A DNA stretch of 64,000 bases, from NCBI GenBank assembly GCA_026874595.1, contig CM049307.1:64410870-64474869 (forward strand). The letters run 5' to 3'. Positions 54,094 to 62,108 of the stretch are shown here, piece by piece (the stretch's first letter is position 1; the number at the start of each line of letters is the position of its first letter). The translations under genes and the position numbers were made by a program. The notes below the pieces were generated by a model. The model searched no databases. It was not told the origin of the DNA and worked only from the letters and a program-made list of their open reading frames with translations. Source of the DNA: Sipunculus nudus (lineage: Eukaryota; Annelida; Sipuncula; Golfingiida; Sipunculidae).

Positions 54094-55327
54094 CTGTTAT
54101 GGTTATCAGACCTCTGTTCAAGCAGTCTGTTATGGTTATCACACCTCTGTTCAAGCAGTCCGTTATGGTTATCACACCTCTGTTCAAGCAGTCTGTTATG
54201 GTTATCAGACCTCTGGTCAAGCAGTCTGTTATGATTATCAGACCTCTGGTCAAGCAGTCTGTAATGATTATCAGACCTGGTCAAGCAGTCTATTAAGGTT
54301 ATTAGACCTCTGGTCAAGCAGTCTGTTATGGTTATCAGACCTCTGTTCAAGCAGTCTGTTATGGTTATCAGACCTCTGGTCAAGCAGTATGTTATGGTTA
54401 TCAGACCTCTGGTCAAGGAGTCTATTAAGGTTATGAGACCTCTGGTCAAGCAGTCTATTATGGTTATCAGACCTCTGGTCAAGCAGTCTATTATGGTTAT
54501 CAGACCTCTGGTCAAGCAGTCTGTTATGGTTATCAGACCTCTGGTCAAGCAGTCTGTTATGGTTATCAGACCTCTGGTCAAGCAGTCTGTTATGGTTATC
54601 AGACCTCTGTTCAAGCAGTCTGTTATGGTTATCAGACCTCTGGTCAAGCAGTCTGTTATGGTTATCAGACCTCTGGTCAAGCAGTCTGTTATGGTTATCA
54701 GACCTCTGGTCAAGCAGTCTGTTATGGTTATCAGACCTCTGGTCAAGCAGTCTGTTATGATTATCAGACCTCTGGTCAAGCAGTCTGTTATGATTATCAG
54801 ACCTCTGGTCAAGCAGTCTATTAAGGTTATTAGACCTCTGGTCGGGCAGTCTGTTATGGTTATCAGACCTCTGTTCAAGCAGTCTGTTATGGTTATCAGA
54901 CCTCTGGTCAAGCAGTCTGTTATGGTTATCAGACCTCTGTTCAAGCAGTCTGTTATGGTTATCAGACCTCTGGTCAAGCAGTCTGTTATGGTTATCAGAC
55001 CTCTGGTCAAGGAGTCTATTAAGGTTATTAGACCTCTGGTCGGGCAGTCTGTTATGGTTATCAGACCTCTGTTCAAGCAGTCTGTTATGGTTATCAGACC
55101 TCTGTTCAAGCAGTCTGTTATGGTTATCAGACCTCTGTTCAAGCAGTCTGTTATGTTTAACAGACCTCTGATCAAGCAGTCTGTTATGGTTGTCAGACCT
55201 CTGGTCGGGCAGTCTGTTATGGTTATCAGACCTCTGATCAAGCAGTCTGTTATGGTTGTCAGACCTCTGGTCAGGCAGTTTGTTATGGTTATCAGACCTC
55301 TGGTCAAGCAGTCTGTTATGGTTATCA
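54094..55327. repeat. 33-bp minisatellite, about 37 units
   Basis: The unit has three parts: CTGTTATGGTTATCAGACC, then TCTGGTC, then AAGCAGT. Variants include GTTCAAGCAG, GGTCGGGCAG and TATTAAGG. Because 33 is divisible by three, frames stay open for hundreds of codons on both strands (for example 430 codons on the minus strand from 55349 and 344 on the plus strand from 54328). A 2-bp deletion near 54271 shifts every frame, several frames are open together, and the product would be a pure 11-residue repeat; coding is unlikely. A block with CTATTAAGGTTATTAGACC followed by the GGTCGGG variant recurs at about 54817 and 55012, a higher-order duplication. Confidence 0.93.
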
Positions 55328-55872: not shown

Positions 55873-56249
55873 ATTCTTGCATTATAATCTTGTTTTGATT
55901 ATTGGCAACTTACTCATGGCCATCAAACACCCTTATTGTCCATCATATATGAAGGCAATGTTCCTTGAAAGTCTTTCATTTTGTAATCATGTTTTAAGTG
56001 GGAACCATGTAGGCCTATTACAGAATACGATAAAATATTACTGAAAATCTTGATTTCCTGAATATGCATGTGTGGGGGAACTAATCATTGTTAGACATAT
56101 TACAAATCAATAAAAGCTTTGATGTTTGAGACTGGGGTGCAGTTGGAAGATTTTGTTATCTTAAATGGTTAATGATGAAAAGAAAGATCGCTCTGTTATC
56201 ATTCAGTATGAAGGTTCTGGACTAGCACCAAAACTGTCTGTATGCTGGT

Positions 56250-57113
56250 GGCTGGGGTGCTCAGGTGTTTGTTACAGAGTACTGGTAGACATGGTTCCTG
56301 CTGCTCTGCCAGCTCGTCCTTGGCTGGGGTGCTCAGGTGTTTGTAACAGAGTACTGGTAGACATGGTTCCTGCTGCTCTGCCAGCTCGTCCTTGGCTGGG
56401 GTGCTCAGGTGTTTGTTACAGAGTACTGGTAGACATGGTTCCTGCTGCTCTGCCAGCTCGTCCTTGGCTGGGGTGTTCAGGTGTTTGTAACAGAGTACTG
56501 GTAGACATGGTTCCTGCTGCTCTGCCAGCTCGTCCTTGGCTGGGGTGCTCAGGTGTTTGTTACAGAGTACTGGTAGACATGGTTCCTGCTGCTCTGCCAG
56601 CTCGTCCTTGGCTGGGGTGCTCAGGTGTTTGTAACAGAGTACTGGTAGACATGGTTCCTGCTGCTCTGCCAGCTCGTCCTTGGCTGGGGTGCTCAGGTGT
56701 TTGTAACAGAGTACTGGTAGACATGGTTCCTGCTGCTCTGCCAGCTCGTCCTTGGCTGGGGTGCTCAGGTGTTTGTCACAGAGTACTGGTAGACATGGTT
56801 CCTGCTGCTCTGCCAGCTCGTCCTTGGCTGGGGTGCTCAGGTGTTTGTAACAGAGTACTGGTAGACATGGTTCCTGCTGCTCTGCCAGCTCGTCCTTGGC
56901 TGGGGTGCTCAGGTGTTTGTTACAGAGTACTGGTAGACATGGTTCCTGCTGCTCTGCCAGCTCGTCCTTGGCTAGGGTGCTCAGGTGTTTGTTACAGAGT
57001 ACTGGTAGACATGGTTCCTGCTGCTCTGCCAGCTCGTCCTTGGCTGGGGTGCTCAGGTGTTTGTCACAGAGTACTGGTAGACATGGTTCCTGCTGCTCTG
57101 CTGGCTCGTCGTC
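56250..57113. repeat. 72-bp minisatellite, 12 units
   Basis: Twelve nearly identical 72-bp units begin GCTGGGGTGCTCAGGTGTTT and end CCAGCTCGTCCTTG. The plus-strand frame 56165-57262 is open across all twelve (24-residue period, WLGCSGVC...LPARP). The only frequent variant is one base in TGT(T/A/C)AC, giving Tyr, Asn or His in the order Y N Y N Y N N H N Y Y H. A second plus-strand frame is also partly open. Absence of family similarity, of splice context and of divergence outside one base argue for a recent satellite rather than a gene, though a repeat-protein exon is not excluded. Confidence 0.9.
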
Positions 57114-58514: not shown

Positions 58515-61500
58515 GTATGGGGACTTGACAACTGTTAATAATAATTTTGCCCCTGTCATATTGTTACTCAGTAATACAGTAATAAATTAAGTGCTTCAGT
58601 TATTGGTCCTTATCAAGGTAAATGACAAATAAAGTATGTGTGCATGTTCACTCTTTTAGTTTTACGTTTGAAGGGTCTCTCATGAGAGAACATAATTGTG
58701 TGTGTGTGTGTGTGTGTATTTATTCTATGGACTGTTTGCACCACATGCCTCTTTTTCCAGTTGTTTTCCTCCCCGTATATGAACATTATATGAACATGTT
58801 ATTTTCTAAGAGCTCCTTGATTTATTGATGTTCATCACATCAGCCATACACATTAGTCATGATCCTGGGGCCCTTGACAATAAACTTTATTTCCTTATTA
58901 CTCATAATTATCACTTGTCGCTGTTTGCGTCATGATAATGATCAGTTTGTTTGATCTAAGAGGACAGTGTTTTGTGTAATGTTTTATGAGCTTAACAGAC
59001 AGGAAAATGCTGTGTCATGTCTAATGGGGTTTCCAGAAAGGAAATTTTATTTAGGGAACTGACTTTCAGTCATGCAGAGCTATACCAATGGATCTTTGTT
59101 GGTTATCCCTCTGCCCAACTGCCTGTATGTCTGCTACCATGGCATAACAGCTAATTGGACCCACAATTTTAACACTTCAGATACAATTTCATCCTCATGA
59201 TATTTTTATGCAAACCCAAAATTAGGTCATAGTATCTGATGAAATCTCCTTGCATACCAAAAATTAGGTCACAGTGACCTATTATCCTGCTATTTATGCA
59301 AAAAGTTACCTTAATGATGTCTGTTACAGAAGGGCATCCATATATAGAAATAGTGGAACAGCCCCAGGAGAGAGGGTTCAGGTTTCGGTATGTTTGCGAG
59401 GGAGCATCTCACGGTGGCATACAGGGAGCCAGGAGTGAGAGAGGAAAGAAAACCTACCCCTCCATTAAGGTTTGTGGATACTGATGATTGATTGTACTAT
59501 ACCTTCAGATTAATGTTTGTGATTTTGCAGATACCACATTTTACCTCCAAGTTTGTGTGAATTGTTTTTATAAAATTTCACTGTGATGTCCATTAGGATT
59601 ATGTTTTAATTGTTGAGACTACATTATGCCATTCTTTAAAGGTGTTTTGTTCATACTTGGCTGTTACTCAAGTATCAGTACTGTAAGGCTCAGTACTAGT
59701 TAGTATTCATAATACATGGACTGATACAACTAAGGCTGTCATGATGCCAGTCATTTGTAGAACTGCATCACTGTGGCTGAAAAATCATAATGTTTTTTAA
59801 TGGCTAAAAATTGTTCTTTATGTGCACTATATTATGCACTCAGTAACATCAAACTAGTTAAGTAGGATAATAGTGTAATAAATCTCTAAATGTTTTTGTT
59901 TTTCCTCTGCTATGTCTTGTTTGTTAAGAATAACTGAATTTTTTAATTAAGGGGTGTTCACGAGGGATTCTACCCTCACTCTTATAGATGTCATCCCTGA
60001 CCTTAAGGCTCAGGATTGATATGGCTTGTGACCCTTTAGCTTTATATGCAAATATACCACAAAACCTGATTGCACTAACATCCTGTATTTGATTAACTGG
60101 TGCTGATACTCCCTACAGCCAGGTACCAGGAAGGTGAAACAATGTGTATATATGCATTACTGTGTGAGGTCATTGATTTAACAAAGATAGCACACATATA
60201 ATGCTTGTTGGCCTAAAGGGCTCTCTGTAGTTTCCACTTTCAGAGTCCCAGTGTTTTTAGATTAGGGCTGAAACAGGTAAAAAAAAATCTTGTTGGACTC
60301 AGATATTTGTACTTATTGCATGACCCTGAGGACCTGGATACTTATTGCCATGGTTGCAATTTACAAGTGATCATATATTAAAAATAAAAAATTATGAAAC
60401 GGTAATTTCACTTTTTTTCCTGATGTGACCCATGTGCTGTTTGCATTTAAGAAAGTACAACAGCTGTTAAAGCATGTTAATGGACGTGTGGCATGGTAAT
60501 GGGCAAAATGATTTTACAGACATGATTAATACCTACATGAAGAACTGCTTTAATGTCTCAAAATGCAGGCCATTATCAATTATGGAGTCTTTCAGACTAT
60601 AATTCTTGGTTAGAATTATTTGGGCACAGATGCTCAGCACTAGTTATTAAGATACAAATTTCCTACTTATTAAGTGACAACTTGTTTCAAGTGAAGTATA
60701 TGGCACCATCTGGTGGTAAACCAGAGAGTCAGTCTGTCTGTGAAGAATAATTTATTTTTTCTGTCTAATTTTAGTTTAGAGAGGCAATCTGTCCATCTAG
60801 CATAAATTGTTTTTTTTCTGTTTATTTTAGTTTAGAGAGGTGTAAAATTAACCTCTGTCTTATTTTAGTTTAGAGAGGTGTAAATTGTGCCTCTGTCTAA
60901 TTTTAGTTTAGAGAAGTGTTAATTGTACCTTTGTCTAATTTTAGTTTAGAGAGGTGTAAAATGTACCTCTGCCTTATTTTAGTTTAGAGAGGTGTATATT
61001 GTACCTCTGTTTAATTTTATTTTAGAGAGGTGTAAATTGTATCTCTGTCTAATTTTAGTTTACAGAGGTGTAAATTGTATCTCTGTCTAATTTTAGTTTA
61101 CAGAGGTGTAAATTGTACCTCTGTCTAATTTTAGATACACAACTACCAAGGGGAAGTACAGTATGTGGTGAGTCTAGTAACAAATGAAAAACGACATCGG
61201 CCTCACGCCCACGAGCTGATCGGCAAAAATTGTAAGGATGGGAAGTGCACTGTCAGGACCAGAGTTAATTACAACACAGTCACAAAGTAAGTCATACTGA
61301 TGATCACTTCATGAGAAATTTCCATTCAAGATTGCACAAGTTAAATTGTGAACAAACACAGACACACACAAACAGGAATGAATGCATGTCCTCTCATATG
61401 GTAGAACTCCTCCATTTAACTAGTGACAAATGAAAATTTGATATCATAGTTAAGCCTGTCTGTTTACATTCAGAGGTCAGTTGACCCTGCAAACCTTGCC

Positions 61501-62108
61501 CCTCCTCAAACAGAGGCAGTATGCATGCTTGTGGAAAAGGTATATTAAAGAGAAACTTTTGTCACACTTGCACTTGTATAAATTTTGTGGGCTTCTTAAA
61601 TTTGCAGAAATTTACATACCATGAAAAACAAATACCATGAATAATTCTAAACCTAAACACAATAAATGCTGTAAAGGTCATCCAAGGATTATTTTTCCTT
61701 AGCCTGCCTGCAAAGTTTATAACAGGTTCTCAGGTATCTACTGAACAGTCTAGTGATGATTTCCTGCACTTGTATTTATAGGGGAATATTGTGAATAAAA
61801 CAGAGTTAAGTTCAATCAGAAAGCAATTAAAATTCTTCAAGATAATGAAATTTTAATGTATTTGGTTACTTTTAAGTAATTCCATGATGATGTATAGAAG
61901 TGGCATCTTCTAATGATATTAGACAGTACCTTCCACAGGTTGTGTCTTACTGTTTTGATTATTGTTTACAGTTTCCCTAACCTGGGCATCCAACATGTCA
62001 CCAAGAAGAAAGTGATAAACATCCTGACCAGCCGGATACTGGAGGAGCTCCGCATGCAGAAAAGGCTCAGTCATAAATGTCACATCGAAGATAAACCCAG
62101 ACTCCAAG
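58403..62108 (+). CDS. Class I NF-kB protein (p105/p100/Relish type), 5' part, four exons, incomplete at 3' end
   Basis: NF-kB proteins are Rel-domain transcription factors that bind kappaB sites as dimers in immune and developmental signalling; class I members normally carry a C-terminal ankyrin inhibitor region. Exons 58403-58514, 59330-59469, 61135-61286 and 61972-62108 join in frame (phases 1, 0, 2, 1) to give about 180 residues. Residues 1-37 are an acidic leader. The Rel homology domain begins at [10 protein letters not shown] (40-49) and has the DNA-contact loop [13 protein letters not shown] (55-67) with the redox-sensitive Cys60. It continues with [17 protein letters not shown] (108-124) and [14 protein letters not shown] (136-149). 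HVTKKKV and the lack of the YYEAE-type insert after CKDG point to p105/p100/Relish rather than Rel/Dorsal. The intron after YPSIK matches a conserved vertebrate boundary. The rest of the Rel domain, the IPT domain and any ankyrin repeats lie beyond the window. Loop residues IQ replace the usual LP. Confidence 0.93.
59266..59280. promoter_or_regulatory. Perfect AGGTCA-n3-TGACCT palindrome in the NF-kB intron
   Basis: AGGTCACAGTGACCT equals the IR3 consensus of estrogen-receptor-type nuclear receptors, and the symmetry extends to TAGGTCAC-A-GTGACCTA. It ends 49 bp before the Rel exon at 59330, inside a fragment of a dispersed repeat. Binding is inferred from sequence only. Confidence 0.45.
59330..59469 (+). 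CDS. NF-kB coding exon 2: Rel-domain DNA-binding loop
   Basis: The acceptor is CTGTTACAG|AAGGG and the donor CATTAAG|GTTTGT. The exon completes codon 38 (Glu) and adds 46 residues with the Rel signature [13 protein letters not shown]. It ends in phase 0 after TYPSIK. Confidence 0.92.
60793..61134 (+). repeat. 38-bp intronic tandem array ending in the NF-kB exon 3 acceptor
   Basis: TTTTAG recurs with its G at 60830, 60868, 60906, 60944, 60982, (61020 mutated to TTTTAT), 61058, 61096 and 61134: exact 38-bp spacing. A unit reads roughly GTTTAGAGAGGTGTAAAT, then TGTACCTCTG, then TCTAATTTTAG. Each holds a pyrimidine-rich CCTCTGTCTAATTTTAG (acceptor-like, with a CTAAT branch-like motif), a donor-like GAG|GTGTAA and a short AGAGGT...ACCTCT stem. 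The last unit supplies the real acceptor. One more related TTTTAG lies at 60774, 56 bp before the first regular one. Confidence 0.92.
61135..61286 (+). CDS. NF-kB coding exon 3: Rel domain
   Basis: It follows CTAATTTTAG directly and ends at ACAAA|GTAAGT. It encodes 50 residues plus two bases, from [19 protein letters not shown] to the NTVT preceding [22 protein letters not shown] aligns with the class I Rel-domain core. Confidence 0.92.
61972..62108 (+). CDS. NF-kB coding exon 4: Rel domain, [11 protein letters not shown] block
   Basis: The acceptor is ATTGTTTACAG|TTTCCC and the donor CTCCAAG|GTAGGT. It completes Asn135 and adds 45 residues, including [14 protein letters not shown] and a basic, probably lineage-specific stretch (RMQKRLSHK). 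The next exon is not in the window. Confidence 0.9.

Follow-up and report, generated by a model that had tools for sequence, protein, structure and literature searches.

An exon encoding part of a Rel domain in Sipunculus nudus is preceded by a run of nearly identical, evenly spaced acceptor-like sites, the last of which abuts the exon. This locus, situated in a 64,000-nt stretch of genomic DNA (hereafter, the window), raises the question of whether the repeated sites control the splicing of an immune regulator or are simply carried by the intron. It is argued below that the array is likely to be a tolerated minisatellite, formed by serial duplication of the last 38 nt of the intron, and an instance of a general habit of this genome. 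The features discussed are collected in Table 1.

Matches to PF00554 were obtained for the window exons and for one exon in L017, a 9-kb segment that adjoins the window and carries later exons of the gene; PF16179 was matched by three L017 exons and ankyrin (Ank) families by one. The Rel homology DNA-binding domain, the dimerisation domain and the ankyrin repeats occur in that order, a combination that, as judged from the predicted product, identifies the gene as one of the NF-kB p105/p100/Relish class. The Rel profile is contiguous over the junction, with positions 1-42 before the intron and 43-87 after it, and the frame is in phase 0. This continuity identifies 61134 as the real, phase-0 acceptor of the predicted Rel-domain exon, as the preliminary description of the locus had proposed. 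A paralogous Rel gene on C3 has an intron at the same phase-0 place (YPAVK/LHNHTG; slashes mark intron positions or splice borders), in which no tandem repeat scoring 50 or more was found. It follows that the intron is old, whereas the array is a derived feature.

Table 1. Exons, intron and repeat features of the NF-kB gene, and arrays found at putative splice sites of myosin and dynein genes. Positions are those of the window unless a segment is named.
Feature	Position	Strand	Basis
Upstream Rel-domain exon, profile positions 1-42, phase-0 end, donor GTTTGT follows	59330..59469	+	PF00554, E 1.4e-17 (query 59278-59469)
Intron, 1,665 nt	59470..61134	+	Flanking exon matches, splice-site sequence
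Older, off-register copy of acceptor segment, TTTTAG at 60774	60757..60785	+	Lag-56 self-match, exact pattern match
38-bp tandem array (array 1), 8.2 copies, units end TTTTAG (one TTTTAT)	60822..61134	+	TRF, lag-38 self-match, unit table
Unit end without on-grid AG: TTTTAT 61015-61020, TTTTAG displaced to 61020-61025	61015..61025	+	Unit table
Exon-proximal unit k0, real acceptor AG 61133-61134, 9-bp hairpin (z -3.76)	61097..61134	+	Unit table, folding, Pfam junction
Downstream Rel-domain exon, profile positions 43-87, followed by donor GTAAGT (61287)	61135..61286	+	PF00554, E 5.5e-13 (query 61135-61290)
Next Rel-domain exon	61972..62108	+	PF00554, E 5.6e-4, 20.4 bits, under curated cut-off 27
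Second acceptor array (array 2), 28 bp x 4.4, ~10.5 kb after array 1	L017 7041-7161; genome G000:C2 64481909-64482029		Scan of adjoining DNA
Myosin donor array, 36 bp, donor CAG/GTCAGT copied ~28 times, 95% matches	L048, G000:C7:52357284-52360541	-	
Myosin donor array, 30 bp x 14.2	L059		
Myosin donor array, 83 bp x 1.9	L061		
Myosin donor array, 35 bp x 3.1	L071		
Myosin donor array, 35 bp x 2.0	L072		
Dynein donor array, 92 bp x 2.9	L094 1948-2214		
Myosin acceptor array, 82 bp x 5.8, unit copies exon start	L053 3433-3964		

TRF reported a period of 38, with 8.4 copies, 90% matches and a score of 496, at 60817-61134. The self-match at lag 38 spans 60822-61134 and halts at the intron-exon border, the last base of the array being the last base of the intron. 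TTTTAG was present at eight of the nine grid points, ending at 60830, 60868, 60906, 60944, 60982, 61058, 61096 and 61134. The 38-bp spacing noted earlier is thus real, and this periodicity excludes chance. The preliminary description had placed the start at 60793; 60793-60821 lies outside the register, and strict periodicity begins at 60822. An off-grid TTTTAG is present in addition, at 60774. The unit said to have lost its AG at 61020 does read TTTTAT there, but TTTTAG returns 5 nt further on, at 61025.

The other elements attributed to the unit are present but less uniform than had been described. CTAAT is exact in five of the nine grid units rather than in nearly all, the remainder having CTTAT, TTAAT or TTTAT, with its likely branch A just 6 nt upstream of the AG of the same unit. 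The donor-like GAG/GTGTAA is exact in 6/8 full units; against the consensus it is a weak donor, having neither A at +4 nor G at +5. The stem formed by AGAGGT and ACCTCT is exact in four of the eight full units and preserved through G-U pairing in three more, and no compensatory change in it was found across the eight; the hairpin was rejected as a conserved element on that ground. Recursive splice sites or 9-nt microexons were likewise rejected, the donor being too weak and the intron from donor to next AG only 29 nt long. Neither a strong donor directly following an acceptor (AG/GTRAGT) nor a short exon ending in a good donor was found in the units when these were read by eye.

The origin of the array was approached through searches of the 1.43-Gb genome with words taken from the unit, in a procedure that passes over very common words. 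All seven matches to a 31-mer, with up to 3 mismatches, lay inside the array. A 24-mer gave 13 matches, eight of them in the array or the old copy; the other five all had 3 mismatches and equalled in number the matches to a reversed 24-mer control (five). A mobile element or dispersed satellite was rejected, as the unit has no copies elsewhere in the genome searched; being unique, it therefore arose on the spot. The exon-proximal unit differs from k1 at 1 base and from k2 at 2, and the distal units differ among themselves at up to 7. That the near-exon units are the most alike fits growth next to the exon. The decayed copy at 60757-60785, which precedes its partner at 60813-60841 by 56 bp in the lag-56 self-match, is off register. 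The suggestion that the array records the duplication of an acceptor has held up well: it looks like a serially duplicated acceptor, probably produced by slippage or unequal exchange near the exon. Each duplication would have copied the whole 3' splice-site segment, with its possible branch sites, pyrimidine tract and AG.

Comparable structures have been described in amphioxus. The so-called mirages (PMC3087553, PMC3902484) are minisatellites of variable length situated across exon-intron borders, and many of their units contain AG or GT. They have been proposed as a source of new introns, and regular splicing is reported to be unaffected by them. The genes named there are Adh3, the globins BflGb6 and BflGb9, troponin C and PGBD5, and the units, some of them homogenised, measure 10-72 bp in Adh3 and about 150-160 bp in the globins. 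Array 1 resembles the mirages in its place at a border and in carrying a splice signal in its units (TTTTAG in 8/9 grid units, the last being the acceptor); mirages occur on the acceptor or donor side, and array 1 is on the acceptor side. It differs from them in that they span the border, whereas exon sequence is absent from its unit and the array ends with the final base of the intron. The host gene, NF-kB, also differs from the amphioxus genes named. Array 1 is best interpreted as an acceptor minisatellite that is tolerated, and as a variant form of the mirages known from amphioxus.

A second acceptor array was found in the same NF-kB gene. It ends at the acceptor TGTTTCAG/TCTCCG (end of the AG at 7149 in L017), and the exon that follows fits the previous exon in phase 1. 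A PDB search with this exon returned three matches, the best with an E value of 0.13, and was uninformative. The unit copies the exon start (about 15 nt) in register, at 12 of 15 bases, a figure reached by 3 of 20,000 shuffles and by none of 540 coding 15-mers; when array and exon were instead aligned locally with no register imposed, significance was not reached (224 and 152 of 2000 shuffles). The upstream AGs at L017 7067 and 7121 would give stops. For array 1, the exon start matches the unit starts at just 3-4 of 15 bases, and that array therefore holds intron only. In the second array, as in the mirages, the unit spans the border and includes the putative splice site.

Two further repeats were noted in this gene. 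A possible donor array at L017 1380-1499 (38 bp, after the first RHD_dimer exon) was rejected, since it starts 34 nt past the donor and has no in-register GT. A 29-bp array with 64% matches at L018 29-246 ends approximately 15 nt before the acceptor of an ankyrin exon of the NF-kB gene and is perhaps an old junction array; being too degenerate, it was left out of the count.

Splice borders elsewhere in the genome were surveyed with 109 exon matches. The myosin head profile contributed all of its 75 listed matches, and a dynein profile 34 of its 84. Seven arrays with a putative splice site inside the unit were identified among them (Table 1), their sequences being read by eye and the sites assigned from frame and motif; two of the seven have only about two copies. 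In holding such a site they too are mirage-like. The gene with the ~28 copied donors is one that we take to be MYO18-like, and the exon start copied in L053 presumably encodes the ERNYHIF motif.

The frequency of such arrays was compared with that of tandem repeats at large. A zone was defined as the 30 bases beyond a match end, and repeats with a period of 20 or more and a score of 50 or more were considered. Arrays touched 9/218 zones, as against 159/2826 control windows, for myosin and dynein together, match ends not always being splice junctions. The corresponding figures were 7/150 match ends and 114/1950 flank control windows for myosin, and 2/68 and 45/876 for dynein. The overlap count and the set of seven are not the same: at L093, L078 and L079 the arrays adjoin a junction without including it and were not counted as mirages, although L093 and L078 enter the zone overlap, and L059, a mirage by reading (its exon extends past the profile match), falls outside it. 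Enrichment at splice junctions was not seen by overlap; the frequency of arrays at splice borders is close to that in the rest of the introns. In an exploratory test, the near ends of arrays lay nearer to exons than expected under uniform placement (7 of 14 within 30 nt; null mean 3.1, P 0.022), the arrays not being independent, as 4 of the 14 come from one C9 region (L078, L079). Array placement may, then, not be fully random. During the survey, four neighbouring matches to the same myosin head stretch (profile positions about 109-153) were observed at G000:C2:44849337-44852248, an arrangement that suggests alternative exons of a muscle myosin gene.

Two further cases are also relevant. A 1995 title in the reference list of PMC2572611 reports a minisatellite that supplies multiple splice donors to an interferon-induced transcript. 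To the extent that a title allows, the resemblance lies in a minisatellite unit with a splice site in an immune-related gene. In that transcript, presumably 6-16/G1P3/IFI6, the sites are donors provided to the message, whereas those described here are candidate acceptors. In human segmental-duplication genes, internal tandem repeats at exon-intron borders are able to alter gene structure or create introns (PMC2812944). Tandem repeats at splice borders are common to both settings; for the recent human paralogues, alternative introns have transcript evidence. The literature searched, in which few subscription journals were covered, yielded no description of such arrays in NF-kB genes or in invertebrates other than amphioxus.

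How the last of several near-identical acceptors would be chosen is not apparent from the sites themselves. Of 16 positions, 11 are pyrimidines at the real site, and 13 and 14 at the two most distal copies; the ten other acceptors of the NF-kB gene and its paralogue have 8-12. The sequence gives no reason for the last copy winning. A branch A located 6 nt from an AG is too close for use. One proposal is that the array forms a structured 3' splice-site module, in which each CTAAT serves as branch site for the AG of the following unit, 44 nt on, while the hairpin in between masks the AGs inside it and reduces the effective distance to about 19-23 nt; with the AG at 6 nt too close, the last acceptor would need at least two units, which would keep the array in place. 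The k0 hairpin has a predicted energy of -11.5 kcal/mol, with the z value given in Table 1 (-3.25 for k1). Effective distances are 19 nt for k0 and k1 and 23 nt for k3, k4, k6 and k7, and the AGs at distances of 13 and 15 nt from the branch site of k1 have an unpaired probability of 0.01 or less, compared with 0.40 for the real AG. Yeast spliceosomes use 3' sites 10-45 nt from the branch site, and comparable folding acts in yeasts (PMC9508853). The hairpin does not form in k2 and k5, however, for which the effective distances are 36 and 44 nt, and CTAAT precedes it in only four of eight units (k0, k1, k4, k5). Besides the lack of compensatory change already mentioned, the outer C-G pair occurs in only 2/8 units; 218 of 500 single-base shuffles reach an equal or shorter distance, although only 4 of 500 reach its energy, and in longer context the last two TTTTAG sites are mostly paired (unpaired 0.04-0.09). 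Such a module is considered rather unlikely. Exon definition through the strong downstream GTAAGT donor would be a simpler reason than the hairpin, and neither of these readings of site choice speaks against the array having originated neutrally. An alternative branch-point candidate is TGTAAAT, some 23 nt upstream of the AG.

The consequences of using an upstream copy were examined by translation in the phase of the upstream exon. For every one of the 39 upstream AGs in 60701-61133, translation runs into a stop codon before the following exon has been read through. For the nine upstream TTTTAG sites, the stop comes after four codons in five cases (FREV* or FTEV*) and after 8 to 35 in the others; copies that are in frame also meet one. 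The earlier argument that upstream copies would add multiples of 38 nt, mostly out of frame, is right as arithmetic but secondary and understated; since the protein is truncated from each upstream AG tested, the argument is superseded.

These stops could be taken to favour a poison-acceptor rheostat, in which upstream copies compete for the donor, early stops bring about message decay and copy number sets the dose of NF-kB; the decoys match the real site in sequence, some with better pyrimidine tracts. Summed over five arrays (L048, L059, L053 and arrays 1 and 2, real sites included), a splice dinucleotide was changed at 4 of 120 positions, versus 142 of 2224 others; every single-array Fisher test gave p of 0.16 or more. 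Decoy splice dinucleotides are thus neither preserved nor lost beyond background, which weighs against the rheostat: the decoys have not been purged, nor is there a clear sign of their being kept. Since homogenisation within an array also preserves splice motifs, any argument from the lack of erosion is weakened. Comparable arrays in myosin and dynein genes, one with ~28 donor copies, show that the phenomenon is not tied to immunity, and amphioxus arrays of this kind are reported to leave splicing undisturbed (PMC3087553, PMC3902484), although one of the two papers adds that cryptic sites could be used. The rheostat is quite improbable. Copy-number tuning of NF-kB is possible yet unsupported, the decoys bearing no sign of selection and junction arrays recurring at about the background rate. 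Nor does the array appear special to an immune regulator, such arrays recurring in myosin and dynein genes at about the rate of tandem repeats in general.

A broader version of the idea is that the genome carries spare donor or acceptor arrays on ~3% of exon ends (7/218 match ends), that a 'copy nearest the exon' rule is robust, and that leakage at arrays, that of NF-kB included, makes copy number a fast-mutating dosage dial. This is regarded as very improbable; if true, individuals would differ in the setting of the dial, and new introns or exons could arise from it. An assembly artefact, with copy number inflated or collapsed, is extremely improbable: tandem arrays are prone to such errors, and a mis-assembled mirage in the amphioxus draft is reported in PMC3087553, but most units here differ, at up to 7 of 38 bases, the array is about 320 bp long and its place is unique.

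Most probably, then, the array arose as a by-product of the genome's richness in repeats and is tolerated, and is not a special immune switch. Tandem arrays of this genome would come to lie on donors and acceptors at roughly the frequency seen for the rest of the introns. Array 1 would be tolerated because the spliceosome uses, presumably exclusively, the exon-adjacent copy, probably because the strong donor downstream helps to define the exon; splicing to an upstream copy would truncate the message. Near-identical splice sites beside an exon amount to a natural experiment in site choice by the spliceosome when the candidates are equal. That several genes of a single genome carry them, in addition to the published amphioxus and human cases, bears on the gain and shift of intron boundaries. 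If neutral, they warn against reading regulation into periodic splice motifs.

Other repeats were observed in the neighbourhood. Two minisatellites with long open frames on both strands occupy 54094-55327 (33 bp x 37.5) and 56249-57110 (72 bp x 12, 98% matches) of the window; Pfam matches in the former were judged spurious, arising from its repetition. A satellite of ~28 bp, in ~167 copies, lies just before the window (L020 1-4771). Within the span of the NF-kB gene, at L018 2403-5594, long frames were seen that by eye resemble a non-LTR retrotransposon.
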